In this document: piece by piece, positions 26,366 to 42,083 of the stretch
Position numbering within the stretch: position 1 is the first letter of the stretch
Layout of the letters: every line of letters begins with the position of its first letter
Origin: Lachnospiraceae bacterium
GTDB lineage: Bacteria > Bacillota > Clostridia > Lachnospirales > Lachnospiraceae
Length of the DNA stretch: 42,976 bases
Assembly: GCA_017467845.1 (NCBI GenBank)
Contig: JAFUKH010000044.1
Location: 1 to 42,976 of the forward strand
Direction: 5' to 3'
Position numbers and translations under genes: made by a program
The notes under the pieces: generated by a model
What the model saw: only the letters and a program-made list of their open reading frames with translations
What the model was told of the DNA's origin: nothing
Databases searched by the model: none

Positions 26366-28666
26366 ATGAAAGGGATAAAAGTATTTCAGGAAAAGACCTA
26401 TAAGGAATTGGGGGATTTATACGGTCTCTTTTTTGAGGACATCAATCATGCGGCAGATGGCGGCTTATACGCGGAGCTGGTGCAGAACCGTTCCTTTGAG
26501 TTCTGCGAGATTGACAAGCCGGAGTATCATCGTCTGACGGCCTGGGAGAAATCCCGGGATTGCCAGTGGCAGATACTCACTGAGAAGCCATTAAATGAGG
26601 AGAACACACATTATTTGCATGTATCTGCAAATAGCGGTTCTTATGTGGCGAACAGTGGCTTTAACAGCAGTATCTTCGTGGAGAAGGATAAGGAGTATAC
26701 TTTTTCTATATATGTGCGTACTTCAGCGAAAGGCGCTATACTGAAGATTTCGGTAGAGGATGAAAGCAGAGCAGTGTGCGCTCAGGCAGAAGTTACTTTA
26801 GAAGCATCCGAGGAATTTGTAAAGTATCAGGTGAGTTTAAAGGGAATTGCTACTACATGGAATGGGAAGCTATATATCACCTTTGAGAAAGATGGTACCT
26901 ACGATTTGGATATGGTATCTCTTTTCCCTGTGGATACATACATGGGCAGAGAGAATGGTCTGCGTAAGGATATTGCACAGGCATTGGCGGATATGAAGCC
27001 GAAGTTTATGCGTTTCCCAGGCGGCTGTCTGACACATGACGGAGCTTTGGATGACCATGCAAGGAATTCTATGTATCGCTGGAAGAGAACCTTGGGACCT
27101 ATTGAGAAGAGACCAAGCTGGAGAAATAACTGGAGATATAACCAGACCCTGGGCCTTGGATATTATGAATATTTCTGCTTCTGCGAGGATATGGGAGCAA
27201 AGCCCCTTCCTGTAGTGCCTGCAGGCTTTAATCCTCATAAGGGAGAAGGCGTGGCGCTGGAAGAGATTGGTAGCTGGGTACAGGAGACGCTGGATTTAAT
27301 TGAATTTGCCAATGGAGATGAGACCACAACCATGGGTAAGGTGCGTAGCGAGATGGGACATCCGGCGCCTTTCGGACTGGAATACTTAGGTGTGGGCAAT
27401 GAGGAGATCGGAGCCGGATTCTTTGAAAGATATCCTTATTTCCATAAGGCTATCCGGGAGAAATATCCGGATATTAAGATTATTAATACGGCAGGTCCCT
27501 TTGCTGTGGGGGAAGGCTATGAGGATGGCTGGAGGAGTGCCAGAGAGCATGGCAGTGATCTGATTGATGAGCACTACTATTCTTCACCGGAGTGGTTTCT
27601 TGCCAATATGCATCATTATGAGGATTATGACGAGAAAGGACCTAAGGTATTTTTAGGAGAGTACGCGTCCTGGGGCAATACCTATTATAATGCTATTGTG
27701 GAAGCTGCCTATATGACTCATTTGGAGCGTTCTAAGGCGGTGGCACTGGCGTGCTATGCACCGATGCTTTGTAATGTGGACTATGTGAATTGGCAACCGG
27801 ATATGCTTTGGTTTGATAATCATCGTATTATGAAGACTCCCAATTATTATGTGCAGAAAATGTTCATGGAGAATCAGGGTACCGATGCAGCGGAATTTGA
27901 AATGCAGGAACTGGATGAAATTATCCCTCTGACAGATGAGGTTAATTTAACCGGAGGAATCACCATCACCGGTAATGACGTCACCGGTAGTATCTGGGAT
28001 GTGCAGGTGGAAGAGGACGGTACCCGAAGAAGTCTGGAGGATTTGCAGATTACGGATAATGCACAGCACGAGCTTACGAATATTACCGGAAAGAAATTTA
28101 GCCTTACCTTTAAATTTAAGCGGGATAGTGGCAGAAAGGGATTAAAGATTTATTTCGGTAAGAGAGACGATAAGAATTTCCTACAGTGGGAATTCGGTGG
28201 CTGGGACAACTGGGATTGTAATATCGGCAATATCAGTAAGGGCAGAGGTTCTACCATTTCCCACAGAATCTTCCATGTAGAAGATATGGAGTATACGTTG
28301 AAGCTTGAGGTGGATGGACGTCATATTAAGACTTATGTCAATGGTGAGAACTATAATGATGTAACGGATCGTTTACCGGAGATTGAAGAGTTATATGTTA
28401 CCGCAAGTGTGGATAAGGAGCAAGGAACCACCATTGTGAAGGCAGTAAACCTAACAGGGGAAGAAAAAAATGTACTTCTTTCCTTGGATGGTGGAGAGAA
28501 GAAGCAGGCAGAGATTACTTCTCTTGCAGGTTGTGCATTAGATGCAGTAAATACCTTGGACGAGCCGGATAATATCACCACCAAAAAGTTGCATATGACA
28601 CTGATAGGCAATCAGCTTACCTACACCTTCCCGCCTCACAGCGTGACAGTAATGGTATTTTCATAA
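26366..28666 (+). CDS. GH51 alpha-L-arabinofuranosidase with extra beta domains
   Basis: A 766-residue retaining glycosidase that removes arabinofuranose from arabinan or arabinoxylan oligosaccharides. GLFFEDINHAADGGLYAELVQNR opens the fold; FMRFPGGCLTHDG follows; acid/base Glu346 is in GVGNEEIG and nucleophile Glu432 is in FLGEYASWG. Residues about 65-195 form a CBM4_9-like insert (VEKDKEYTFSIYVR), and residues about 560-690 form a jellyroll-like domain (FKRDSGRKGLKIYFGKRDDK), explaining why it is longer than the usual 500 residues. It has no signal peptide, so it acts in the cytoplasm on imported oligosaccharides. The ribosome site is weak (AAAGGGG). GH43 follows after 13 bases. Confidence 0.92.
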   Translation: MKGIKVFQEKTYKELGDLYGLFFEDINHAADGGLYAELVQNRSFEFCEIDKPEYHRLTAWEKSRDCQWQILTEKPLNEENTHYLHVSANSGSYVANSGFNSSIFVEKDKEYTFSIYVRTSAKGAILKISVEDESRAVCAQAEVTLEASEEFVKYQVSLKGIATTWNGKLYITFEKDGTYDLDMVSLFPVDTYMGRENGLRKDIAQALADMKPKFMRFPGGCLTHDGALDDHARNSMYRWKRTLGPIEKRPSWRNNWRYNQTLGLGYYEYFCFCEDMGAKPLPVVPAGFNPHKGEGVALEEIGSWVQETLDLIEFANGDETTTMGKVRSEMGHPAPFGLEYLGVGNEEIGAGFFERYPYFHKAIREKYPDIKIINTAGPFAVGEGYEDGWRSAREHGSDLIDEHYYSSPEWFLANMHHYEDYDEKGPKVFLGEYASWGNTYYNAIVEAAYMTHLERSKAVALACYAPMLCNVDYVNWQPDMLWFDNHRIMKTPNYYVQKMFMENQGTDAAEFEMQELDEIIPLTDEVNLTGGITITGNDVTGSIWDVQVEEDGTRRSLEDLQITDNAQHELTNITGKKFSLTFKFKRDSGRKGLKIYFGKRDDKNFLQWEFGGWDNWDCNIGNISKGRGSTISHRIFHVEDMEYTLKLEVDGRHIKTYVNGENYNDVTDRLPEIEELYVTASVDKEQGTTIVKAVNLTGEEKNVLLSLDGGEKKQAEITSLAGCALDAVNTLDEPDNITTKKLHMTLIGNQLTYTFPPHSVTVMVFS

Positions 28667-28679
28667 AGGAGATATAGCG

Positions 28680-29627
28680 ATGCAAGCATATTTATTTGTA
28701 CATTTTAAAGAGACAAGAACTCCGGAGGGAGAACAGGTATATTTTGGCATCAGTACCGACGGATATCATTGGGAAAAGGTAAATGATGGTAACCCGGTGC
28801 TCTGGAGCTATAAAGGGGATAAGGGTGTCCGCGATTTTACTATCACCAGAACTCAGGACGGTAGATTTGTAATTCTGGCAACAGACCTTAGTCTTTCCTA
28901 TGAATTTCGTTATAAGTATAAGAATTCATGGGGTGAGGTGAAGCGAGTAGGAAGTAAGGAGCTGGTGATGTGGGAGTCAGAGGATTTGATTCACTGGTCA
29001 GAACAGAAGATGCTTCCTATTGGTACTCCGGATTTTGGATGTATGTGGGCTCCGGATATTATTTTTGATAAAAAGGAAGGGGACTATATTATCCATTGGT
29101 CTTCTTCTCACAAGGATACAAACTACGATCCTATGTGTATTTATTATTCCAGAACAAAGGATTTTGAGACTTTTACTTCACCGGAGGTTCTGTATCAGGG
29201 AGAGAATCCCTGTATCGACTCTGCAATGTATGAGGAGGATGGTAAGTTTTATCTGTTCGTAAAGGGAGTTGGCAATCCTATTCGTGTGTTTATGCTGGAG
29301 AGTGAGAATATCACCGGCCCATGGACCAAGGTGGAAGGGTTTGATGAATGTATGGAAGGAGTTATTAACGAGGCATATGAGGCACCTACCGCATTTAAAA
29401 TGCCGGATGGAAAGTGGACTCTGATGCTGGACTTCTTTGGGACAAAGGAGGCCTCCGAGCAGGGATATGTTCCTTTTGTGGCAGAGAAGCTGGATGGTGG
29501 AAGATTTGTAAGAAGTGACAGTGATTTCTCTTTCCCTTATGGTTATAAGCATGGAACCATTCTGACCATTACTATGGAAGAATATGAAAGCTTGAAAAGC
29601 TACAAGAAGAGCCCGAATGAACACTAA
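28680..29627 (+). CDS. GH43-type arabinosidase or xylosidase
   Basis: A 315-residue five-bladed beta-propeller glycosidase related to GH43. Blade motifs include GVRDFTITRTQDGRFVILATDLS (general base Asp), GCMWAPDIIFDKKEGDYIIHWSS and ALHE-like NEAYEAPTAFKMPDGKWTLMLDFFG, where the EAYEAPT Glu would be the acid. It has no signal peptide, so it works in the cytoplasm, as does the GH51 enzyme 13 bases upstream; AAAGGAG precedes the start. The pair is a typical arabinan-side-chain unit. Substrate within GH43 (arabinose or xylose linkages) is not determinable. Confidence 0.87.
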   Translation: MQAYLFVHFKETRTPEGEQVYFGISTDGYHWEKVNDGNPVLWSYKGDKGVRDFTITRTQDGRFVILATDLSLSYEFRYKYKNSWGEVKRVGSKELVMWESEDLIHWSEQKMLPIGTPDFGCMWAPDIIFDKKEGDYIIHWSSSHKDTNYDPMCIYYSRTKDFETFTSPEVLYQGENPCIDSAMYEEDGKFYLFVKGVGNPIRVFMLESENITGPWTKVEGFDECMEGVINEAYEAPTAFKMPDGKWTLMLDFFGTKEASEQGYVPFVAEKLDGGRFVRSDSDFSFPYGYKHGTILTITMEEYESLKSYKKSPNEH

Positions 29628-29650: not shown

Positions 29651-29678
29651 TTGAAAAAACAATAGAGTTATATATAAA
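29651..29678 (+). promoter_or_regulatory. Promoter of the sugar-sensor diguanylate cyclase
   Basis: TTGAAA (29651-29656), a 16-base spacer and TATAAA (29673-29678) make a plausible sigma-A promoter. Transcription would start near 29685, just before a hairpin in the leader. Confidence 0.5.
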
Positions 29679-29686
29679 TAGTGCTA

Positions 29687-29735
29687 TAGTACCGCAAAAA
29701 AGTTGAAATTTATCGAGTACTGTGGTACTATTTTT
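29687..29735 (+). terminator. Hairpin with T-run between GH43 and the diguanylate cyclase
   Basis: TAGTACCGC (29687-29695) pairs with GTGGTACTA (29722-29730, one G-T pair) and TTTTTATAT follows. A smaller alternative, AGTAC/GTACT at 29716-29729, uses the same right strand. It may end the GH51/GH43 transcript or, if the promoter at 29651 is used, act as an attenuator in the leader. Confidence 0.5.
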
Positions 29736-29766
29736 ATATATATGTTGGCGTAGAGGGAAATGGGTT

Positions 29767-31617
29767 ATGAAGAGAATCGCTTTACTTTCTGATGGCTGGA
29801 AAAGAATGATGACATATGCTTGGGTGGACGGTATTATGAAAAGAGCATGGGACAGGGACGAGGAAGTGCGTCTTTATCACTACGTCTGCCATGGAAACTG
29901 GAGTAATGATGAATTACATAACTTAGGCGAGTACAATATCTTTGAATTGCCGGAGCTGGATAAGATGGACGGCATAGTTCTTGATTTAATAAATATTAAT
30001 GATGTAAGTATTCGTAACAAGCTGATCAAAAAACTGAAAAAGTACAATGTACCCATCGTAAGTGTTGCTTTGGGAATTGAAGGCTTCTATTACGTCGGTA
30101 TTGATAATAGGAGTGCAATAGCAGAGTTGATGCATCATCTTCATGATGAGCATCAGTGTAGAAGTTTTGTCTTCGCAGGCGGTCCGAAGGATAATTACGA
30201 GAATCAGCAGCGTAAACAAGGATTCATTGATTGTATTGAGGAGTTTGGACTTAATCTGGAAGATAATCCTATCCTTGATGGTGATTTTGATTTTTATCAT
30301 GGTGTCAGTCATTTACGATATATTGTAGATAATGGATTAAAAATCCCAGATGCCTTTGTATGTGCCAATGATAACATTGCTGCGGGGCTTTGCTCGGAGG
30401 CTGCTAATATGGGATATTCCATTCCAAAGGATTTTAGAGTAACCGGCTTTGATAATTTGGATAAGGCAGTTTTCTTTAAACCACAGATTACTACTGTAAC
30501 AAGTACCAGAGAAGTGACCGGTGGTGTGTGTCTGGACATTCTTTCCAGAATTTGGGCATGCGAAGAGGTACCCAAAGAAAATCTCATTCGGAGTAGCTGT
30601 GTGTATGGAGAGAGCTGTGGATGTCCGAATAATAACATTGTAGATTATAGAGATTATGCTAAGAATCAGATTATCTGGGGAGTTAAGCGTGATGTGAATG
30701 CCCAGCAGCTGATGGAGCTGGAAGTTGAGTTAGCTAAACGAAGGGAGTTTGAAGATATTTTTGCGTGCTCTTCCGAGTATTACGAATCCAAGGATTGTGA
30801 TGCTGTTTACTTTGTGGTGGACAAGAAGCTTTATGAGGCACATCCCGATACGATTTTCGGCTCGAAGGGTTATGATTTGGATAATTGTATTGTAGCCAGA
30901 GCAGTAGAGGATGGGGAACTTTTGAAGATTCATTCCTTACAGGAGCTTACAAATCATATAGAAGCACAAGAGGGAAGCTGCTCTTATACGTTCTCTCCCA
31001 TACACTTCCGGCAGCAGGCAGTGGGATTTGTGATATTGAAAAACGCTAATTTTCTGTACAACAATCCTAATTTTTATGATATACATGCAGCAAGCGTTAC
31101 TGCATTGGAGAACCGATTTAAGAAAAAGCAGCTTGAGTCAGCAGCGATGCAGCTTAGAGATATTTATAACAGAGATCAGCTTACCGGTATTTATAATCGA
31201 ATCGCCTTCGTGGAGAAGATGGTTCCGGCATTTGAGACCTTCTGTATGGAGAATGAAAAATGCGCCATTTTATTCTGTGATGTCAATTATTTCAAAGAGA
31301 TAAATGACAATTACGGGCATGAGGCAGGAGACCGTGCCTTAAAGAATATCGCAAAGTCTCTTAAGAATAACTGTCCGATGGGGGGCTTTGTCTGCCGTTA
31401 TGGTGGAGATGAATTTGTGGTAATGTTCCCTCGAGCGACTTGGCAGCATATTGATGATTACTGCGGCAATGTGCGTGAGGATTTAGGGAAGCACGGATTG
31501 TCTATCAGTATGGGTGCTGTGCTCACTGATCCCAGAGAGAATGTAGATTTGCATGGCTACGTAGCGAAAGCAGATCAGAAAATGTATGAGCAAAAACAAA
31601 TGACAAGAAGAGGCTAA
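29767..31617 (+). CDS. LacI-type sugar-binding domain fused to diguanylate cyclase
   Basis: A 616-residue cytoplasmic protein with no signal peptide, membrane segment or helix-turn-helix. Residues about 1-290 match the sugar-binding domain of LacI-family regulators ([73 protein letters not shown]), ending with a Cys-rich [17 protein letters not shown]-like segment (about 300-450) follows, then a coiled link and a GGDEF domain with [32 protein letters not shown] and intact GGDEF at 546-550. No RxxD inhibitory site stands out directly upstream of GGDEF. It should make cyclic-di-GMP in response to a small molecule, probably a sugar. ATG 29767 follows AGAGGGAAA. The chemoreceptor gene follows after 25 bases. 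Confidence 0.9.
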
Positions 31618-31642
31618 TATCGGGGGGAAGAAGGACGTGAAG

Positions 31643-33361
31643 ATGAAGACCAGAAGACTAAGTATTCGTGTGAAATTGTTGGTGGTATGCTGTGCGACAA
31701 TCTTGTATGCTATCGGGTATATGGGATATGATTTGGCCAAGCGTTTTAAGGAGCAGATGGTTGATATGGCTGTGATTCAGGCTTCCGTAGCAGCGGAGGT
31801 TGCAGCAGGCAGTATCAATGTGGAAACCTTAGTACAGCTAAAAGCCGGAGAAGAAAATACACCGGAGTATGCAGGAATTGCTAAGGCACTTAGGGATGCC
31901 AGAGATACTTGCGGAATCATGTATGTATATACCTTGTGGACGGATGGAAGTAAGGTCTACTACGGAGTAGATGCAGATGAGTCAGAGAGCAGATGTGCTA
32001 TCGGCGAGGAGTTCGAGGTTTCCTATGAAGAATTAAGCGGTGTATTTGCCGGTGAAAGCTATGTGCAGGACTATATAGATTACACGGAAGAAGGGGAACT
32101 GATTAGTGCTTATGTGCCCCTTAAGAATAATACCGGACAGGTAGTGGGAATTCTGGGAAGTGATTTTGATGCGTCAGTGGTATCAGAGCAGTATGCTTCC
32201 TTCCAAACCAAAGTTGCACAGATTGGTGCAGTGATTTTTGTCATTTCACTCATTCTTGTACTTGGGGTAGTTCAGGCAGTGATGAAGGGAATTCGTAAGG
32301 TAAACGAAAAGCTTTATGAATTAGTTCATAATGAAGGGGACTTGACCCAGACTTTGGAGGTTCGTTCCGGCGATGAAATGGAGATAATGGCCGGACTGGT
32401 CAATGAGCTATTAGCGTATATTAAAGAAATTATGCTTCAGATATCCAAAGGATCAGATGATATTAAGGAGTCCAGTGATGTGATAGCAGAGCGTCTTGCC
32501 AATGCCGGAGAGGGACTCATGGATGTTTCTGCAACCATGGAAGAGATGAGTGCCGGTATGCAGCAGACTACAGCTTCCTTAAATCAGATTACAGAAGTTG
32601 TAGATGGTATGAACGCACGTATCGGTAATATTGCCAATCGGGCGATGGAGGGAGATTCTCTTGCAAGAGATATCCGCGGCAGAGCAAAGGATACTTATGA
32701 GGTTGCGTCTGTAGAGCAGGAAGAGGCAAAGGTAAGTGCCAATGAGATGGCTCAGACGGTAGCAGAAAAAATTGAACTGTCCAAAGCAGTCAATGAGATT
32801 CATGTATTGACAGAGAATATCATTGGTATCACAGAACAGACGAATCTGTTAGCACTCAATGCAAGCATTGAAGCAGCCCGTGCCGGAGAGGCTGGAAGAG
32901 GATTCGCGGTGGTAGCAAGTGAGATAGGTAAGCTTGCCACAGACTCTGCTGATGCAGCCGGAAAGATTAAGAAGGTAAGTGCAGATGTGGTTCGTGCTGT
33001 GGAAGAATTGGCAGGGGAATCACAGAAGATGATTGAATTCATGGGAACCACTGCCATGGAGGGCTACAATAAGCTGATTCATATTTGCGATGATTATCGA
33101 GCGGATGCAGATAGTTTCTTAACTATTATGGAGGAATTTGCCCGAGAGTCTGAGGAACTGGATGGTGTTTCAGAACAGATTAATGAGGCGATGAATGCAA
33201 TCAATATTGCGGTAGAAGAATCCACAAAGGGAATTACCGTGGTATCAGAGACTTCCTCCGGTTTGACCGGAGACATCTGTGATATTGAACAAAAGGCAGG
33301 CTTTAATCAGGAAATTGCGGAAAATCTTGCGCAGCAGGTTGCAAAGTTCAAGTTAGAATAA
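31643..33361 (+). CDS. Methyl-accepting chemotaxis protein
   Basis: A 572-residue chemoreceptor. A first membrane segment (about 10-30, [18 protein letters not shown]) is followed by an extracytoplasmic sensor of about 165 residues with a Cache-like character ([21 protein letters not shown], and [23 protein letters not shown]). A second membrane segment near 200 ([17 protein letters not shown]) leads into a HAMP-like linker and the signalling coiled coil, whose tip [30 protein letters not shown] binds CheA/CheW. No CheR tether pentapeptide is visible at the end. ATG 31643 fits AAGGA at 31631 better than the in-frame GTG at 31637. It probably shares a transcript with the diguanylate cyclase. 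Confidence 0.93.
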
Positions 33362-33764: not shown

Positions 33765-36700
33765 ATGTTCAAGAATTCAAAGAAGCGAAAAAGTTTCAGA
33801 CAGACATTAGCTTGGATGTTATCTTTAGCAATGATTCTGTCAAACCTGACAAGCTTTCAGGTTCAGGCAACCACCGTTTCGTCCGGTGATACCGTAACGC
33901 CCGGTGATGGTGCCACAGTAAAAGAATATGTCCTGAATCCTGCTGACCTTGCTACATTCGCATCTGGTGAAAAGACAGATGGCCAGGAAGAGGCAGCCGG
34001 AACAGACAATTATTTTACTATTATTTATAGCGCGAAAGCAGCTGTAAATGACAATAGCAAAACATTTGAGGATGGTTTTGTGGCAACAAAGAGAATTAAC
34101 TTTGGCGGATCTTCTTCTGCATCAAAGAATGCCATAAAGTTTACCACCTCTGACGCTGCTACCGTTAAAGTATGGTGGGCATGCGGCGGAGACGCTCGTC
34201 AGGTGTCAGTATTCGACAGCGCTAAGACGGTAATCGCTGCTACTGCACTGGAATCTGTAAAGAACGAGGTGTACATCTCAGAGCTTTCCGTAGCAGAAGC
34301 AGGCACCTACTACTTAGGCGGCCTGGAAGGTAACAACTATCTTTATAAGATTTCAGTTACAGAAGGTGCAGCACAGGATGCAGAACCCACTGCAGAGCCA
34401 ACCGCAGAACCTACCGCAGTACCTACGGAAGAGCCAACCGCTACGCCTGAAGTGGAAGCAACAGAAGCTCCTGCAGTAGAATATGATCCTACCAAGACGG
34501 AAGTTTGGGATTTTGGTGGAGAGCAGTTAGATACTTCCGTATATAACAACATGCTTACCGCTGATATCATGAACAGCTGGTATCCGGGTGTTGAGCCTGG
34601 AACCGCAGGAAAGAATCTTGCAAGCTGCTCCGTGACCGACGCGGAGGGCAATGTTTTATTTGCTTTTAATGATGGTGGATATTCTGCAACTCACAGACTT
34701 CGTACAACCAATACTGCTGTGACAAGATATGATGAGAAGACCAAGACCTTAGGCGATGTGACCTATACCGGATTCATTTATTCTAATAAAGCAGCATCTG
34801 CAGAGGTATATGTTGCGTTTGATTTAAATCCGGGTGAAGTGCTCACAGCAATTATTTCATCTAACGGAACTGCTGCGGATTATGTAGTAGAAGCTCCTTC
34901 CGGTGCAAAGACTACTTATGAAAATGTATATGATGGAAGTACACAGGCAGCTGAATTAACCTTTTATGCAACAGAAGAAGGTCTTCATAAGATTTACACA
35001 AGCAAAGAGAAGCTTGTTATCTGCCGTGCTTACATTGAGCCGGCTGTGGAAGTTGCCGTAACCGGCACCGTAACCGCACCGGAAGGACTTGCTGATTACA
35101 GTGTAATCCTTACCAATAACCAGAGTGGTGCAACTACTATCGCACAGGTAGCCGATGGAAAGTATTCTGCGTCTCTTTACGCAGGGTATGATTACACATT
35201 AACTCTCGGAAATGCAGACGGATATGTTATCTCAGAAGGCGCAGCACTTTCTTTAGCAGATGGTGTTTCCGGCGCAATTGCTGACATTACCGTTGTTGCA
35301 GTTGAGAAGTTTGCTGTTACAGGTAGCTTAATCGGTTTACCGGATGACGTAATTGCAAATCTTACATTAGAATTTGTTTCTGACGAAATCTTCGTTCCGG
35401 AAGTAAAAATCGACGGATCAAGCTACTCTACCGAATTAGAAAGTGGTATCGAGTATACCGTTAAGGAATCCGGTATCAATGATTACAGCTTAGTATCACC
35501 TGCTACTGTAAAGATTACCGAAGCGGGCACTATCGATATTACCTTCGAGAAGAAGCCTGTATATAATGTAACAATTGCTCCGGAGGGTGCAACCGCATCT
35601 GATCTTGCAAATGCAACCTTTACCTTCACTAATTTAAATGAAGAGGGTTACGTATATACCTTTACCGGAACTGAGAACATCCAGTTACGTGATGGTGTGT
35701 ATGAAGTGAAAGTTTCTGACAGTGGTATTTTTGTTCAGCAGCTTACTTCCAACCTTAAGGTAGAGGCGTCAGATGTTACCAAGACGATTAAGTTTATTTC
35801 ATACGTTACCGAGTGGGATTTCAGAACAGCTGATTTCACCGGTCAGTCGCCATACAACGGACTTACCATTTCTGGTTCTTTCAATAAGCATGGTTCTACT
35901 TATGGTATGCAGATTAAGAATGCTACTATCACTGTTCCTGTGTCAGGTGCATGTGAGGTAAAAGTAAGTGTTGGATACAACTGGGATATCAGCTTTGAGG
36001 ATGGTTCTGTAGCTTACTTTGACAATACCAACAGTGGAGATATTACTGTATCCTACAACTATACCGGAAGCGGTGATAGCGTGACCATTAATGTAGGAGG
36101 ACAGTGTACTTCATACATTAAGATGATTGAAGTTGTAGAGAAGGTTGCGTATAAAGAGACCGTAACCGTAGGTGCAGAGGGTTGTGATTATACAACTATC
36201 AACGATGCACTTGATGCTGTTCGTGCAATGGATCGTTCTGACGGGGAGAGAGTAACCATTTCTATCGCTCCCGGCAACTATGAGGAGATGTTAGTAATTG
36301 ATACTCCTAACGTAACCTTAAAGAATGCAAGTGCTACCCCAAGCATTGAGCTCAAGAACAAGGGTGTAGATATTGATGAAAATGCAGTTCGTATTACTCA
36401 CTACTATGGACATGGTTATACCTACTACAGTATGGGTAGCGATTGTAAGTATGATGAAGAGATATTAGCAGTAAACAAAGAGAACGGATATGCTTCTTTT
36501 GAGAATCCGGGTTCAGGTACTACTAACGGAAGCTACTGGAATGCAACCGTTGTAATTAATGCAAGCGGTGTAGAGGCAGAGGGTATTATCTTCGAGAACT
36601 CCTTCAACCAGTATGTTTCTGAGAAGGCGGCTAACGATGTAATCGTAGCTCAGTCAGGCGCAAAGGAAGGTAGTGTAAAGCGTGCCGATATGGAAGCAGG

Positions 36701-39700
36701 CGATACTACTGTTCAGGATAAGAAGTATGTAGAGAGAGCAGCAGCACTTGCAATCTACAACAATTGTACAGAGGTTTCTTTCGACAATTGTAAGTTTATC
36801 GGGCGTCAGGATACCTTATATGGTGGAACCGGCGTAACCGCAGCATTCTATGATTGTGCAATTTACGGTGGTACCGACTATATCTTTGGTGGAATGAACG
36901 CTGTATTTGCAAAGTGTGATTTAGTATTCAATACCAGTGAAGATGGTAACGATGAAGGTTACATCACTGCTGCACAGACCAAGTCCGGCAGAGGTATGTT
37001 AATGTACAACTGTCATGTTACCAGTACTGTTCCCGGCGTAGATACCGCTTCAGAATATCCTTCTAAGGCCGGTTACTTCGGAAGACCTTGGCAAACAAAT
37101 ACCGGTGAAGCAGTGTTCTACTATACTGTAATCGACGCAACCGATTCTCATTGGTACGGGGCATCTGCTTCTATGATTCTGCCTGAAGGCTGGAATTCAA
37201 CCTTAAGTGGCGAGTCTGTAATGAGTGCAGAGTACGGAAGCTATGAGATGGCTAAGGATGTAGATAACCAGGCTAGTAGAGTTGCATGGGCTACAACCTT
37301 AAATGAAACTTCCGGTGCAGTGCTTGCAGACGGTACTGCAATTTCTGTAGAAGCTTTCTTAGGCAACTGGGATGCTTTTGCAGGCAAGGATATGACAATT
37401 GTAATGCCTACCGATAAGGTAGACAACGCTCCTGTAGAAGATGATGAGGAATCAGCTACTACTGAGTTTGTATTAGAGACAAGTGCATTAACTGCATTTG
37501 CACAGGGAACTAAGGCTGACGGAGATACCGAGAAAGCCGGTACCGAGGATTACTTTACTTTAATCTACAGTGCAAAGTCTAAGGTTGACGGAAGTAAGAA
37601 GACCTTTGATGATGCATATTATTCAGAGCAGCGTGTAAACTTCGGTGGCGCAGCATCAACCGAGAAGAACGCTGTGAAGTTTACTACTTCTAATCCTGCA
37701 ACCGTAAAGGTATGGTGGGTAGAAGGAGGCGATGACAATCGTCAGATGGCAATCTTAAATGCAGCAGGAACACAGGTGGCAGTGACCGCTGAGACTCTTG
37801 CGAAGAATGCAACCTGCATTTCTACTTTTGAGCTTGCAGAAGCAGGCACCTACTATTTAGGTGGTGCAACCAATAATAACTATATCTTCAAGGTCGTTGT
37901 AACGGAAGAAAAGCCGGCAGAGCCCATCGTAAGTACTTTAGATACCGCAGCAGATTTAACTGCATTTGCAGCAGGCGTAAAGGCTGATGGCGATGAAGAA
38001 AAGGCAGGTACCGAGGATTACTTCACTGTGATCTACAGTGCAAAATCCAAGGTTGATTCAAGTTCTAAGACATGGGATGACGGATATACTTCCAGCCAGA
38101 GATTAAACCTTGGTGGTAAGGTAGCATTAGAGAAGAACGCAGTGAAGTTCACTACTTCTAACCCCGCATCTGTAAAGATTTGGTGGGTAGAAGGTGGCGA
38201 TGACAATCGTCAGATGGCAATCTTGAATGCAGCAGGAGAGCAGGTGGCAGTGACCGCTGAAACTCTTGCAAAGAATGCAACCTGTATCTCTACTTTAGAG
38301 CTTACAGAAGCAGGCACCTATTACTTGGGTGGTGACATTAATAATAACTATATTTTCAAGGTAGAAGTAACCGAGACTCCGGGTGGTACTGTAAAGCCTC
38401 CACGTGCAGATTGGGCTACTGTAGAAGATCCTGTAATAATAAGTGCAGAGCAGATTACTTCTGCTGACAATACTATTGAAGTTAATCTAACTGCAAACGT
38501 TGGTTATGACGGAGCAGATAATATTACTGTTACCATGACTGACGAAGCAGGGGAGGTAGTTGCTACCAGAAATTCCTCTAAGGAAGCAAATGAACATACC
38601 GTAACCTTTAATCCTACTGCATCCGGCAACTACACCTTCTCTGTAGTAGCAGTTCGTGAGGGAGAAGAGGATAAGGCAGGTAGCGAGACAAAGAGCGTAG
38701 CATTCGTTCTTAAATTAGAAACTCCTTCTATCACAAGTGCAACCAGTCTTGGTGCACAGGCAGATGGAACTGTTAGTGTTGAAGTATGCTGGGATGCTGT
38801 AACTGAAGCAACCGGCTACGAAGTATCTGTTAAAGATACTGAGATTAAGGATACTACTACTGCAACTGCTTATACTGTAACCGGTTTAACCGCTGGTCAG
38901 GAATACACCTTTGTTGTTAAGGCTCTTCGTGGTGAAGAGGTAAGTGCAGAAGCTACTATCGTTGCTAAGGCAACTGCTGAAGAGCAGATGAAGTGGTCTT
39001 TTGCAGCATTTGGTAGTGGTGTAGATACTAAGAACAATGGTTACGAAGGTAACGCAAATGACGGTAGTGTACGTGTGTACTCCAATAATGGTAAAGGAAA
39101 GATTGTTCCTAATACCACCGATGGACTTGCATTCTACTATACCGAGATTAATCCGGAAACTACTAACTTTACCTTAACTGCAACTGCAAAGGTAAATAAT
39201 TGGAAACTTTCCAACGGTCAGGAAGGCTTTGGTCTTATGGCTGCAGATAGAGTTGGTAAGAATGGTGATAGCTCTACCTTCTGGAACAACTCATACATGG
39301 CAAGTGTAACCAAGGTTGAATACTATTGGGATGGCGAGAAGGTAAGCGATGCCGGTAGCAAGATTTCTATGAAGCTTGGCGTTGGTTCTCAGGAAAAGAA
39401 GGGTGTAACTCTTGACAATATCAATGAGGCACTTAGTCTTGATGACATGAGCCTGTTCTCTACCAAGATGACTACTTTAGAAACATCTTGCGCAGCAAAT
39501 GGTGCAGGAACCTACAATATTGTAGGTGGATATACCGGTACTGAGCCTACCGGAACAGTGGAAAATACTGCTACAGAGTTTAAGCTCACTATCCAGAAGA
39601 ACAACACCGGTTACTTCGTAAGCTACACCAACGAAGCTGGTGAAACTGTAACTAACAAGTACTACGGTACTGACGTATTAAATTACTTAGATAGCGATTC

Positions 39701-42083
39701 TGTATATGTTGGTTTCTATGCTTCCAGAAATGCAGATATCACTTTCGAAGATATTACCTTTACTACCATTTCTCCTGAGGATGATGTTCCTGCAGAAGAA
39801 AGACCTGTTACTTTAGTAACTCCTAACTTCTTCATCGAGTCTGCAACCACTGCAAACAGTGCAGATTATGAAATGGTATATTACGGAAATGCTGACGGCC
39901 AGTTAGTAATTACCGATGAAGATGGTAATGTAATTCTTGACAAGACTGTAGTAGCAAATACTAAGGTTCGCCAGAGTGTAACTCTTGCAGAAGGTAAGAA
40001 TAACTTCAAGGTAACCATGACTCCTGATGCTGATTATCAGCCATCAGAATATGAGAAGTTAAGCTCATACGATGTAGTAAGCTTTACTCATGTAGTAGAG
40101 TATAGAAATAGCATTCAGACCGTTGTATATGTTGGTCCTGAGGGAACCTCAAACGGCGAAGGTACTAAGGAAAGTCCTTTAGATATCTACACCGCAGTGA
40201 AGTGGGCAATGCCCGGTCAGCAGATTCTGTTGATGGAAGGTACCTATAACTTATCTCGTACCGTAACTATGGAAAGAGGTATGGATGGTACTGCTGACAA
40301 GATGATTTACTTAATGGCAGATCCTGAGGCTGAGACAAGACCTGTTCTTGACTTCAATAAGAAGTGTGCAGGTATGGTAGTAGGTGCTGATTATTGGTAC
40401 TTACAGGGATTTGATGTAACTGAGTCTGCAGATGCTCAGAAGGGTCTTCAGATTTCAGGTAGCAACAATGTTGTTGACAGAGTAAACGCTTATAAAAACG
40501 GTAATTCCGGTATTCAGATTAGTAGATTTAAGTCAACTGACCTTTGGGAAGATTGGCCGGCTAATAACTTAATTCTGAACTGTACCTCTTACCTCAATGC
40601 AGATAAGGGTTACGAGGATGCAGATGGTTTCGCTGCAAAGCTTACCATCGGTGATGGCAACGTATTTGATGGATGTATCGCTGCTTACAATGCAGATGAC
40701 GGATGGGATTTATTTGCTAAGTTAGAGACCGGCGCTATCGGTAAGGTTGTAATTAAGAACAGTCTTGCATTCAAGAACGGTTATGTTGTTGATGAAAACG
40801 GAAATGAAGTGAATGCCGGAAACGGCAACGGTTTCAAGATGGGTGGAGATAGTATCACCGGATACCATACCTTAATCAACTCTTATGCATTTGGTAACAA
40901 GGCGAAGGGATTTGATTCCAACAGCTGTCCTGATATTCAGGTTGAAAACAGTATTGCGTTCAACAACTTATCTTATAACGTAGCATTCTATACTAACAAT
41001 GCTATCAATACTGATTATGCAGCAACCGGTATTATTTCTTACAAGGATGCAGCAGGTGAGGCTGAAAATATAAAGCCTAAGGGAACTCAGGATACCAATA
41101 AGATTTATGGAACTACAAACTATTACTTCGATGGTAGCCAGTCTGCTAACTCTGAAGGTACCAAGGTATCCGCTGATTGGTTTGTATCATTAGATATGGA
41201 TGCAGCAATCAAGGGTGGAATCACCAGAAATGCTGATGGAACAATTAACATGAACGGATTCCTTCAGTTAACTGATAAGGCTCCTAGTGGAATCGGCGCA
41301 AATGGACAGGGAACTCCTTCAGGTGAAATCGAAATGAATCAGCCTGTAGTGACTCCTGCACCAACCGAAGAACCGACTGCTACACCGGAACCTACTGTAG
41401 AGCCTACTGAAGCACCGGAAGCAACCGAGGCTCCAACCGCTACACCGGAACCTACTGTAGAGCCTACTGAAGCACCGGAAACAACCGAGGCTCCAACCGC
41501 TACACCGGAACCTACTGTAGAGCCCACTGAAGCACCGGAAGCAACCGAGGCTCCAACCGCTACACCGGAGCCAACCGTAGCACCAACCGAGGCACCTGCG
41601 CCTACTTCTACACCGGCGGCAACCGTGAAGCCTTCAAATCCTATTAAGGATATTATTAATGCAGGTTCTGATGCAATTAAGGATATTGTTAATGCAGACA
41701 GTGCAGAGGATGTTAGAGATGCAATTACTAACTTCTTTGACAGAGTTACCAGCATTGTTTCAAGACCTAGACGTCAGCAGAGCACTGCTCAGGCTCCAGC
41801 AGCAACGGAAGCTCCTGTAGCAACGGAAGCTCCTGTAGTAACCGAGGCGCCTGTGGTAACTGAGGCTCCTGTAGCAACCGAGGCTCCTGTGGTAACAGAA
41901 GCACCTGTAGAAATTGAAGAGGAGAAGGTTCCTCAGGTAGAGGCACCGGCAGTAGATGCAGCTACAGATACTAAGAATTCTTCCGTTCTTCCATGGATTT
42001 GCATTGCAGTGGCTGCAATTGCAGGAGGCGGCGCAGTAATTACCGGCGCATCAGTTCTTAAGAAGAAAAAGGGAGAAGAATAA
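33765..42083 (+). CDS. Giant surface pectinesterase (CE8) and pectate lyase (PL9)
   Basis: A 2772-residue multidomain exoenzyme. Residues 1-35 are a signal peptide ending VQA. Module A1 (about 54-200) is followed by a Pro/Thr/Glu linker, a VWDFGG beta module (about 245-425), three Ig/CnaB-like modules and a WDFR carbohydrate-binding-like module. CE8 pectinesterase spans about 798-1160 with GRQDTLY (Asp1016), TDYIFG (Asp1038) and FGRPW (Arg1107). Two more A modules (1234-1536) precede an FnIII domain (about 1650-1738), a large beta-sandwich (1743-2005), an Ig-like domain and PL9 (2119-2450) with EDADGFAAKL (Lys2292 as probable base) and DDGWDLF. The C-terminus has PTE repeats, an amphipathic helix, ATEAPV repeats, one membrane helix and KKKKGEE. 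It should de-esterify and then cleave pectin at the cell surface. AGGAGG precedes the start. Confidence 0.93.
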   Translation: MFKNSKKRKSFRQTLAWMLSLAMILSNLTSFQVQATTVSSGDTVTPGDGATVKEYVLNPADLATFASGEKTDGQEEAAGTDNYFTIIYSAKAAVNDNSKTFEDGFVATKRINFGGSSSASKNAIKFTTSDAATVKVWWACGGDARQVSVFDSAKTVIAATALESVKNEVYISELSVAEAGTYYLGGLEGNNYLYKISVTEGAAQDAEPTAEPTAEPTAVPTEEPTATPEVEATEAPAVEYDPTKTEVWDFGGEQLDTSVYNNMLTADIMNSWYPGVEPGTAGKNLASCSVTDAEGNVLFAFNDGGYSATHRLRTTNTAVTRYDEKTKTLGDVTYTGFIYSNKAASAEVYVAFDLNPGEVLTAIISSNGTAADYVVEAPSGAKTTYENVYDGSTQAAELTFYATEEGLHKIYTSKEKLVICRAYIEPAVEVAVTGTVTAPEGLADYSVILTNNQSGATTIAQVADGKYSASLYAGYDYTLTLGNADGYVISEGAALSLADGVSGAIADITVVAVEKFAVTGSLIGLPDDVIANLTLEFVSDEIFVPEVKIDGSSYSTELESGIEYTVKESGINDYSLVSPATVKITEAGTIDITFEKKPVYNVTIAPEGATASDLANATFTFTNLNEEGYVYTFTGTENIQLRDGVYEVKVSDSGIFVQQLTSNLKVEASDVTKTIKFISYVTEWDFRTADFTGQSPYNGLTISGSFNKHGSTYGMQIKNATITVPVSGACEVKVSVGYNWDISFEDGSVAYFDNTNSGDITVSYNYTGSGDSVTINVGGQCTSYIKMIEVVEKVAYKETVTVGAEGCDYTTINDALDAVRAMDRSDGERVTISIAPGNYEEMLVIDTPNVTLKNASATPSIELKNKGVDIDENAVRITHYYGHGYTYYSMGSDCKYDEEILAVNKENGYASFENPGSGTTNGSYWNATVVINASGVEAEGIIFENSFNQYVSEKAANDVIVAQSGAKEGSVKRADMEAGDTTVQDKKYVERAAALAIYNNCTEVSFDNCKFIGRQDTLYGGTGVTAAFYDCAIYGGTDYIFGGMNAVFAKCDLVFNTSEDGNDEGYITAAQTKSGRGMLMYNCHVTSTVPGVDTASEYPSKAGYFGRPWQTNTGEAVFYYTVIDATDSHWYGASASMILPEGWNSTLSGESVMSAEYGSYEMAKDVDNQASRVAWATTLNETSGAVLADGTAISVEAFLGNWDAFAGKDMTIVMPTDKVDNAPVEDDEESATTEFVLETSALTAFAQGTKADGDTEKAGTEDYFTLIYSAKSKVDGSKKTFDDAYYSEQRVNFGGAASTEKNAVKFTTSNPATVKVWWVEGGDDNRQMAILNAAGTQVAVTAETLAKNATCISTFELAEAGTYYLGGATNNNYIFKVVVTEEKPAEPIVSTLDTAADLTAFAAGVKADGDEEKAGTEDYFTVIYSAKSKVDSSSKTWDDGYTSSQRLNLGGKVALEKNAVKFTTSNPASVKIWWVEGGDDNRQMAILNAAGEQVAVTAETLAKNATCISTLELTEAGTYYLGGDINNNYIFKVEVTETPGGTVKPPRADWATVEDPVIISAEQITSADNTIEVNLTANVGYDGADNITVTMTDEAGEVVATRNSSKEANEHTVTFNPTASGNYTFSVVAVREGEEDKAGSETKSVAFVLKLETPSITSATSLGAQADGTVSVEVCWDAVTEATGYEVSVKDTEIKDTTTATAYTVTGLTAGQEYTFVVKALRGEEVSAEATIVAKATAEEQMKWSFAAFGSGVDTKNNGYEGNANDGSVRVYSNNGKGKIVPNTTDGLAFYYTEINPETTNFTLTATAKVNNWKLSNGQEGFGLMAADRVGKNGDSSTFWNNSYMASVTKVEYYWDGEKVSDAGSKISMKLGVGSQEKKGVTLDNINEALSLDDMSLFSTKMTTLETSCAANGAGTYNIVGGYTGTEPTGTVENTATEFKLTIQKNNTGYFVSYTNEAGETVTNKYYGTDVLNYLDSDSVYVGFYASRNADITFEDITFTTISPEDDVPAEERPVTLVTPNFFIESATTANSADYEMVYYGNADGQLVITDEDGNVILDKTVVANTKVRQSVTLAEGKNNFKVTMTPDADYQPSEYEKLSSYDVVSFTHVVEYRNSIQTVVYVGPEGTSNGEGTKESPLDIYTAVKWAMPGQQILLMEGTYNLSRTVTMERGMDGTADKMIYLMADPEAETRPVLDFNKKCAGMVVGADYWYLQGFDVTESADAQKGLQISGSNNVVDRVNAYKNGNSGIQISRFKSTDLWEDWPANNLILNCTSYLNADKGYEDADGFAAKLTIGDGNVFDGCIAAYNADDGWDLFAKLETGAIGKVVIKNSLAFKNGYVVDENGNEVNAGNGNGFKMGGDSITGYHTLINSYAFGNKAKGFDSNSCPDIQVENSIAFNNLSYNVAFYTNNAINTDYAATGIISYKDAAGEAENIKPKGTQDTNKIYGTTNYYFDGSQSANSEGTKVSADWFVSLDMDAAIKGGITRNADGTINMNGFLQLTDKAPSGIGANGQGTPSGEIEMNQPVVTPAPTEEPTATPEPTVEPTEAPEATEAPTATPEPTVEPTEAPETTEAPTATPEPTVEPTEAPEATEAPTATPEPTVAPTEAPAPTSTPAATVKPSNPIKDIINAGSDAIKDIVNADSAEDVRDAITNFFDRVTSIVSRPRRQQSTAQAPAATEAPVATEAPVVTEAPVVTEAPVATEAPVVTEAPVEIEEEKVPQVEAPAVDAATDTKNSSVLPWICIAVAAIAGGGAVITGASVLKKKKGEE
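37464..38373 (+). repeat. Tandem duplication of a 468-bp module
   Basis: Two adjacent copies of the A module within the giant pectinase, offset by 468 bases: the word GATGACAATCGTCAGATGGC occurs at 37731 and again 468 bases later at 38199. Over long stretches the copies differ only at scattered, mostly synonymous positions. A third, diverged copy is near the N-terminus (about 33924-34364). The close identity implies recent duplication or gene conversion. Confidence 0.85.
41381..41580 (+). repeat. 60-bp tandem repeat coding a PTE linker
   Basis: A unit of 60 bases (TACACCGGAACCTACTGTAG and on) recurs with a period of exactly 60 over about three and a third copies with only a few base changes, coding 20-residue blocks of the type TATPEPTVEPTEAPEATEAP. 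It forms a flexible, probably glycosylated, wall-spanning linker and can change length by slippage. Confidence 0.92.
41802..41909 (+). repeat. 18-bp tandem repeats coding ATEAPV/VTEAPV
   Basis: Six consecutive 18-base units (41802, 41820, 41838, 41856, 41874, 41892) code the hexapeptide (A/V)TEAPV. The first two are identical and the rest diverge at third and first positions. They form a second stalk just before the C-terminal membrane helix. Confidence 0.92.

Follow-up and report, generated by a model that had tools for sequence, protein, structure and literature searches.

A protein encoded in a Lachnospiraceae genome joins a LacI-type domain to a GGDEF enzyme, and the locus raises the question of which ligand such a sensor reads and how its binding is passed on to the enzyme. 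The window, that is, the whole stretch of DNA analysed (42,976 nucleotides of contig JAFUKH010000044.1), contains the following features.

26366 to 28666, + strand: GH51 alpha-L-arabinofuranosidase, no signal peptide by eye (Pfam, N-terminus)
28680 to 29627, + strand: GH43 enzyme, no signal peptide by eye (Pfam, N-terminus)
29669 to 29740, no strand: inverted repeat with 24-nt arms between the GH43 and cyclase genes (fold z-score −3.78)
29767 to 31617, + strand: whole cyclase gene (616 aa), encoding LacI-type sensor, connector, middle domain and GGDEF domain
29767 to 30612, + strand: LacI/periplasmic-binding-protein-like sensor, residues 1-282, without helix-turn-helix (Pfam; CcpA effector domain by phmmer)
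30613 to 30624, + strand: connector motif S283-C284-G285-C286 (alignment of 27 members)
30700 to 31131, + strand: middle domain, residues about 312-455, tentatively GAF-like (hhalign; no Pfam support)
31168 to 31608, + strand: GGDEF diguanylate cyclase domain, residues 468-614, with the GGDEF motif at 31402-31416 (Pfam, E 1.7e-32)
31637 to 33361, + strand: chemoreceptor (MCP) gene beginning 20 bases past the cyclase gene (Pfam MCPsignal; adjacency kept in L013)
33765 to 42083, + strand: 2772-aa secreted protein with a pectinesterase domain (Pfam; signal-like N-terminus by eye)

Architecture and setting of the sensor-cyclase

The reading frame is open from the ATG at 29767 to the stop codon ending at 31617; an in-frame GTG lies 45 nt upstream of this ATG, but the orthologues align from MKRIA. 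The earlier note had described a LacI-type sugar-binding domain without a DNA-binding helix-turn-helix (HTH), and had proposed a domain search of the N-terminus as a check. Pfam matches of the periplasmic-binding-protein type were obtained for the window protein, Peripla_BP_3 at residues 124-284 (E 6.3e-19, above its cut-off) and Peripla_BP_1 at residues 83-275 (E 1.2e-12), and a phmmer search of PDB sequences gave catabolite control protein A as the nearest match (residues 60-269, E 1.7e-18). LacI R197, N246 and D274, which we take to be inducer contacts, align with R149, N201 and D229 of the window protein. No HTH family was found among its Pfam matches, and the orthologues begin at the first strand of the sensor; the protein thus does not have the N-terminal HTH of a LacI transcription factor. 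In addition, no transmembrane-like stretch was detected in the window protein, its best 19-residue hydropathy being 1.34 as against 2.83 in the neighbouring chemoreceptor. Since nothing in the protein appears to span the membrane, both the sensor and the enzyme are taken as cytosolic.

The GGDEF domain carries intact active-site residues, as had been claimed. In an alignment of 27 full-length members, whose identity to the window protein ranges from 21 to 83%, D505, N513, G547, D548 and E549 were invariant, and D522, G546 and F550 were kept at 90% or more. An RxxD inhibitory site is absent before the GGDEF motif; PMGG stands at residues 537-540, presumably the corresponding position by PleD numbering. 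These results confirm the observation of a soluble LacI-type sensor and an intact GGDEF domain in one protein. The segment between them had been called GAF-like, an assignment that found weak support in profile-profile comparison. The middle domain of the window protein had no Pfam match, and among 17 members only one touched Pfam GAF (E 0.11). On the other hand, a profile of these 17 middle domains aligned with a profile of ten GAF domains at an hhalign probability of 57.6 (E 1e-4), compared with 0.2 for one control profile, and a conserved Pro and Gly coincided between the two. A PDB profile search with the middle domain gave weak matches only, all to one unrelated enzyme. The middle domain is therefore only tentatively regarded as GAF-like.

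The GH51, GH43, chemoreceptor and pectinesterase-domain genes around the cyclase gene were all recovered by Pfam as they had been described, and an arabinofuranosidase model matched the GH43 enzyme in addition, below its cut-off. L013, a Lachnospiraceae metagenome-assembled genome whose cyclase is 83% identical to the window protein (80% over the sensor), has kept the gene order GH51, GH43, cyclase, chemoreceptor and pectinesterase protein. The inverted repeat at 29669-29740, which folds better than 199 of 200 shuffles and is partly kept in L013, is a candidate operator, attenuator or terminator. Promoter and terminator scans gave signals not clearly above those of shuffles, and no Rfam match was found in the window at gathering thresholds.

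The Cys-Gly-Cys connector

A Cys-rich motif closing the sensor had been pointed out from the window alone. The motif is real and follows the sensor; it is not a peculiarity of this protein but a hallmark of the whole architecture, since C284, G285 and C286, like the catalytic residues, are invariant in 27 of 27 full-length relatives, preceded by Ser in 25 and Thr in two. Two distant members, L060 and L063, have kept the first Cys only. The motif was also present in 44 of the 45 rows of a tree set picked by sensor similarity, the 45th (L053) being a piece that ends before it; the first listing showed only frames with the motif or GGDEF, and relatives with neither would have escaped it. By contrast, it was absent from 21 of 22 repressor-size frames, own-genome ones included, these being the frames that the script could place (several confirmed by size only; in nine further repressor loci no frame was placed). 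The sole exception, L232:1087-2325, resembles a repressor, with a crude HTH match, and its frame closes with ESCGC, where an in-frame TAG stands.

The outputs behind the motif are diverse. It precedes GGDEF-EAL or EAL domains in L057, L058, L061 and L062, HD_5 domains, which we take to be of the HD-GYP-like type, in L213, L214 and L215, and a histidine kinase in L218. The idea that the motif marks only sensors of c-di-GMP enzymes was rejected on account of the HD_5 and histidine-kinase outputs. Taken together, these outputs suggest that Cys-Gly-Cys is a mark of LacI-type sensors that act on a signalling enzyme instead of on DNA, and its joining to HD_5 in three loci and to a histidine kinase in one is consistent with the sensor and connector forming a general cytosolic sensor module. 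With two Cys per chain, and hence four per dimer, the pair could serve as a metal site or a disulfide clasp. The invariant connector offers an easily mutated handle on communication between sensor and enzyme.

Peripla_BP-GGDEF signalling proteins, which have the same domain pairing as the window protein, appear in a 2022 review of c-di-GMP sensing with no ligand given, the sensor being placed among putative domains of unknown function; neither the connector nor hydrolase fusions are described in the sections of the review considered here (PMC8846402). The absence of a named ligand in that account, together with the Cys pair being the most constant feature outside GGDEF, would fit a vestigial or purely structural sensor in front of a cyclase that is constitutive or under redox or metal control at the Cys pair. 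We regard this explanation as very unlikely, because across genera the sensor retains 46-50% identity and because the hydrolase fusions described below suggest a matching ligand.

Galactanase links and the candidate ligand

Orthologues were found by sensor similarity alone. Six of them (L047, L049, L098, L100, L104 and L204) are one continuous reading frame of sensor, middle domain, GGDEF and GH53, with some 170 further residues behind it; in L049 and L104, which start at the edge of a contig, the first part of the sensor is missing, and L097, of the same clade, runs off its contig. The GH53 module was matched in all six by Pfam (E 1.4e-94 to 6.1e-101). It corresponds to the GH53 endo-beta-1,4-galactanases of PDB 7OSK and 1R8L, with which both Glu contexts (GNE and VVETAH, whose Glu residues we take to be catalytic) align and are kept in 6/6. 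L204 belongs to the genus of the window and is 48% identical over the sensor; besides its fused module, it has an upstream GH43 and another GH53 beside it. In five further genomes (L102, L103, L209, L210 and L053), a GH53 gene is the direct neighbour of the cyclase gene. These neighbouring enzymes lack a signal peptide by eye in L102, L103 and L209, and the one in L053 is lipoprotein-like. GH42 comes next in L102, L209 and L210, ABC permeases are found in L102 and L209, and galE lies beside L045 and L103. In the window itself, the reading frame ends right after GGDEF, so that the protein is not a cyclase-galactanase fusion, and GH53 was found neither in the frame nor beside the gene.

A tree of 45 sensors (IQ-TREE) placed the window protein in a 34-row clade with support of 100/99. 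Its first part, clade A, has 14 rows (the window, L013, the six fusions, L097 and five others), and clade B has 20 (the five GH53-adjacent cases and 15 others). GH53 was thus linked to 11 of the 34 clade rows, compared with none of 39 distinct outside loci (Fisher p 8e-5, shared descent being ignored). Within flanks of about 1.5 kb in most, no GH53 was found in any of the 41 loci outside the clade (39 distinct), nor in 29 repressor loci; of the 41, 39 match the outside set best, and the remaining two, L057 and L059, are weak and match clade A best. The flanks of the clade loci were longer than those of the outside loci, but all 11 GH53 cases are fusions or direct neighbours. The linkage would have either an early origin within the clade or several separate origins, and both histories would point to a ligand of the galactan type for these sensors. 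W19, E145 and R248, presumably LacI pocket positions, are among the residues that are fixed in A and B and vary in the other paralogues; the overlap with the pocket was borderline (3 of 16, p 0.065).

A galactan-type locus is also encoded in the genome of the window. At L258:2063-9302 (G000:C2), genes for an ABC permease, a lipoprotein, a LacI-type repressor, a cytosolic GH53 and a GH35 lie in a row. This GH53 (514 aa) is 41-43% identical to the fused modules over almost its own full length, compared with 29-33% to the three other GH53 enzymes of the genome. A pocket shared by the cyclase sensor and the repressor of this locus was considered and rejected, since the pocket of the repressor differs. 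GanR of Bacillus subtilis sets a precedent for LacI-type regulation by such a ligand: this LacI-type repressor has beta-1,4-galactobiose as its inducer, and pellicle formation in the same organism is promoted by galactan, according to the portions of the report used here (PMC5472308).

Based on the fused or adjacent GH53 genes, the catalytic Glu residues kept in every fusion and the cytosolic GH53 of the galactan locus, the window protein may control c-di-GMP synthesis by sensing, in the cytosol, pectic side-chain oligosaccharides that have been imported and most likely derive from beta-1,4-galactan or arabinogalactan; we consider the chances of this reading evenly balanced. It is weakened by the absence of GH53 at the gene in 23 of the 34 clade rows, many of which adjoin unrelated genes, by the neighbours of the window gene being GH51 and GH43 rather than GH53, by the weak support (83/62) for the window as sister of the fused clade, by the borderline pocket conservation and by the different pocket of the own-genome repressor beside GH53.

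The GH51 and GH43 neighbours would instead favour the same device with arabinose or an arabino-oligosaccharide, handled by these cytosolic enzymes, as the ligand. Both genes are immediate neighbours of the cyclase gene and kept with it in L013, and GH43 also lies upstream of the L204 fusion. However, a GH51 or GH43 as in the window was found in none of the other loci searched (sets of 16 and 34, partly overlapping), whereas GH53 recurs near the compared orthologues, and we consider arabinose or an arabino-oligosaccharide a rather unlikely ligand. The earlier interpretation, which had named a pectin- or arabinan-derived ligand and proposed a survey of homologous neighbourhoods, is accordingly supported in part: pectin is the best supported source and arabinan is less certain, since the survey returned GH53 in 11 of 34 clade rows and the GH51/GH43 order only in L013.

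The more distant orthologues adjoin genes for Hsp33/NAD synthase, a LysR regulator, dnaE, a YkuD protein and others, and L046 lies between an upstream chemoreceptor gene and a downstream GGDEF-EAL gene. As many of these neighbourhoods are not linked to pectin, the sensor might read an unrelated cytosolic metabolite, the carbohydrate-active neighbours being coincidental. We think this improbable, as GH53 is linked to eleven members of a single clade and to none of 39 loci elsewhere.

In the galactan-type reading, pectin would be cut outside the cell and its side-chain oligosaccharides imported. The ligand on which the LacI-type domain closes would most probably be a beta-1,4-galacto-oligosaccharide from a rhamnogalacturonan-I side chain, which may also bear arabinose; the Cys-Gly-Cys connector and then the middle domain would relay this closure to the GGDEF dimer, and c-di-GMP synthesis would change. 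The cell would thereby link its use of pectic side chains with attachment and with motility, alongside the chemoreceptor encoded next to the cyclase. In the GH53-fused members, hydrolysis of the oligosaccharide would either switch the signal off or produce the ligand. The architecture, the intact catalytic residues, the invariant Cys pair and the comparative link to GH53 are seen in the sequences; we infer the ligand, the direction of the effect, the dimer mechanism, the output and the role of the Cys pair. A wider and doubtful proposal is an "eat-and-tell" class, in which one polypeptide would bind a plant-glycan oligosaccharide, make c-di-GMP and, in the fused members, hydrolyse what it has bound, the signal being self-starting or self-terminating as the sugar is cut; the Cys connector would couple closure to the following enzyme as a clasp formed by a metal or a disulfide, and the window protein would be an un-fused member. 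The galactanase fusions offer a concrete ligand class for LacI-type c-di-GMP sensors, and suggest how dietary pectin could act directly on second-messenger control in gut bacteria.

A hydrolase other than GH53 is also joined to this architecture. L065:2827-7131 (+ strand), a distant relative, encodes sensor, Cys-Gly-Cys and GGDEF together with a complete GH3 (Glyco_hydro_3 and Glyco_hydro_3_C) in 1434 aa, and is by its predicted domains a second kind of cyclase-hydrolase fusion.

Known systems, paralogues and distribution

The window protein is predicted to have the effector-binding fold in common with the LacI-family repressors, GanR included (GanR being likened by its description in the portions used, not by sequence), but the window protein has no DNA-binding domain, a GGDEF enzyme as its output and the Cys-Gly-Cys connector. 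Control of c-di-GMP turnover by a periplasmic-binding-type domain, as proposed here, is described for RmcA of Pseudomonas aeruginosa; according to the sections of the review considered, RmcA is a phosphodiesterase with an SBP_bac_3 domain for L-arginine, whereas the window protein is a predicted cyclase with a LacI-type cytosolic domain (PMC8846402). The galactanases 7OSK and 1R8L differ from the six fusions in that the latter carry the module behind a diguanylate cyclase.

In the open-licence literature, no paper was found on a GGDEF-GH53 fusion or on the ligand of a sensor of the window type, and no earlier description of the invariant connector or of the hydrolase fusions. PMC5457731 was considered as a precedent for GH53-GGDEF and rejected, because its protein 5 is HAMP-GGDEF in the part of the article consulted. 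A CAZyme tool had labelled this protein GH53, a label that database entries of GGDEF-GH53 fusions could explain. Within the literature reviewed, much of it in excerpt, the window protein is thus an uncharacterised case of a known architecture.

The genome of the window (3.0 Mb, 105 contigs, 86% complete) gave 14 Peripla_BP_3, 30 GGDEF and four PilZ matches. Peripla_BP_3 and GGDEF occurred together in four frames, that of the window and those on C95, C79 and C4. The C4 paralogue has AGDEF instead of GGDEF, and two of the three other paralogues adjoin carbohydrate-type genes, namely a GH2 enzyme and a GDSL esterase (L009:5505-10876 and L011:5677-8932). The c-di-GMP-I riboswitch gave no match in this genome, and control genomes likewise gave none.

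Among Lachnospiraceae, a query of sensor plus middle domain was matched in 185 of 200 genomes, plain repressors included. The closer group (A2 profile, E 1e-60) was present in 54 of 397; many of the compared genomes are metagenome-type draft assemblies. LacI-type sensors joined to c-di-GMP enzymes are common in this family. In viral-contig scans, no sensor relative was found, and the matches of the full-length profile were mostly to the GGDEF half. In L057:3689-7486, L061:1374-5171 and L062:1274-4681, the same sensor is joined to EAL, with or without GGDEF, and a 380-residue tail after EAL has no Pfam match and looks by eye like a right-handed beta-helix. A plasmid match (H1, NC_019789.1) is a Deinococcus peraridilitoris protein with an EAL annotation that is 27% identical over window residues 57-615, and the sensor architecture may therefore reach beyond Bacillota.
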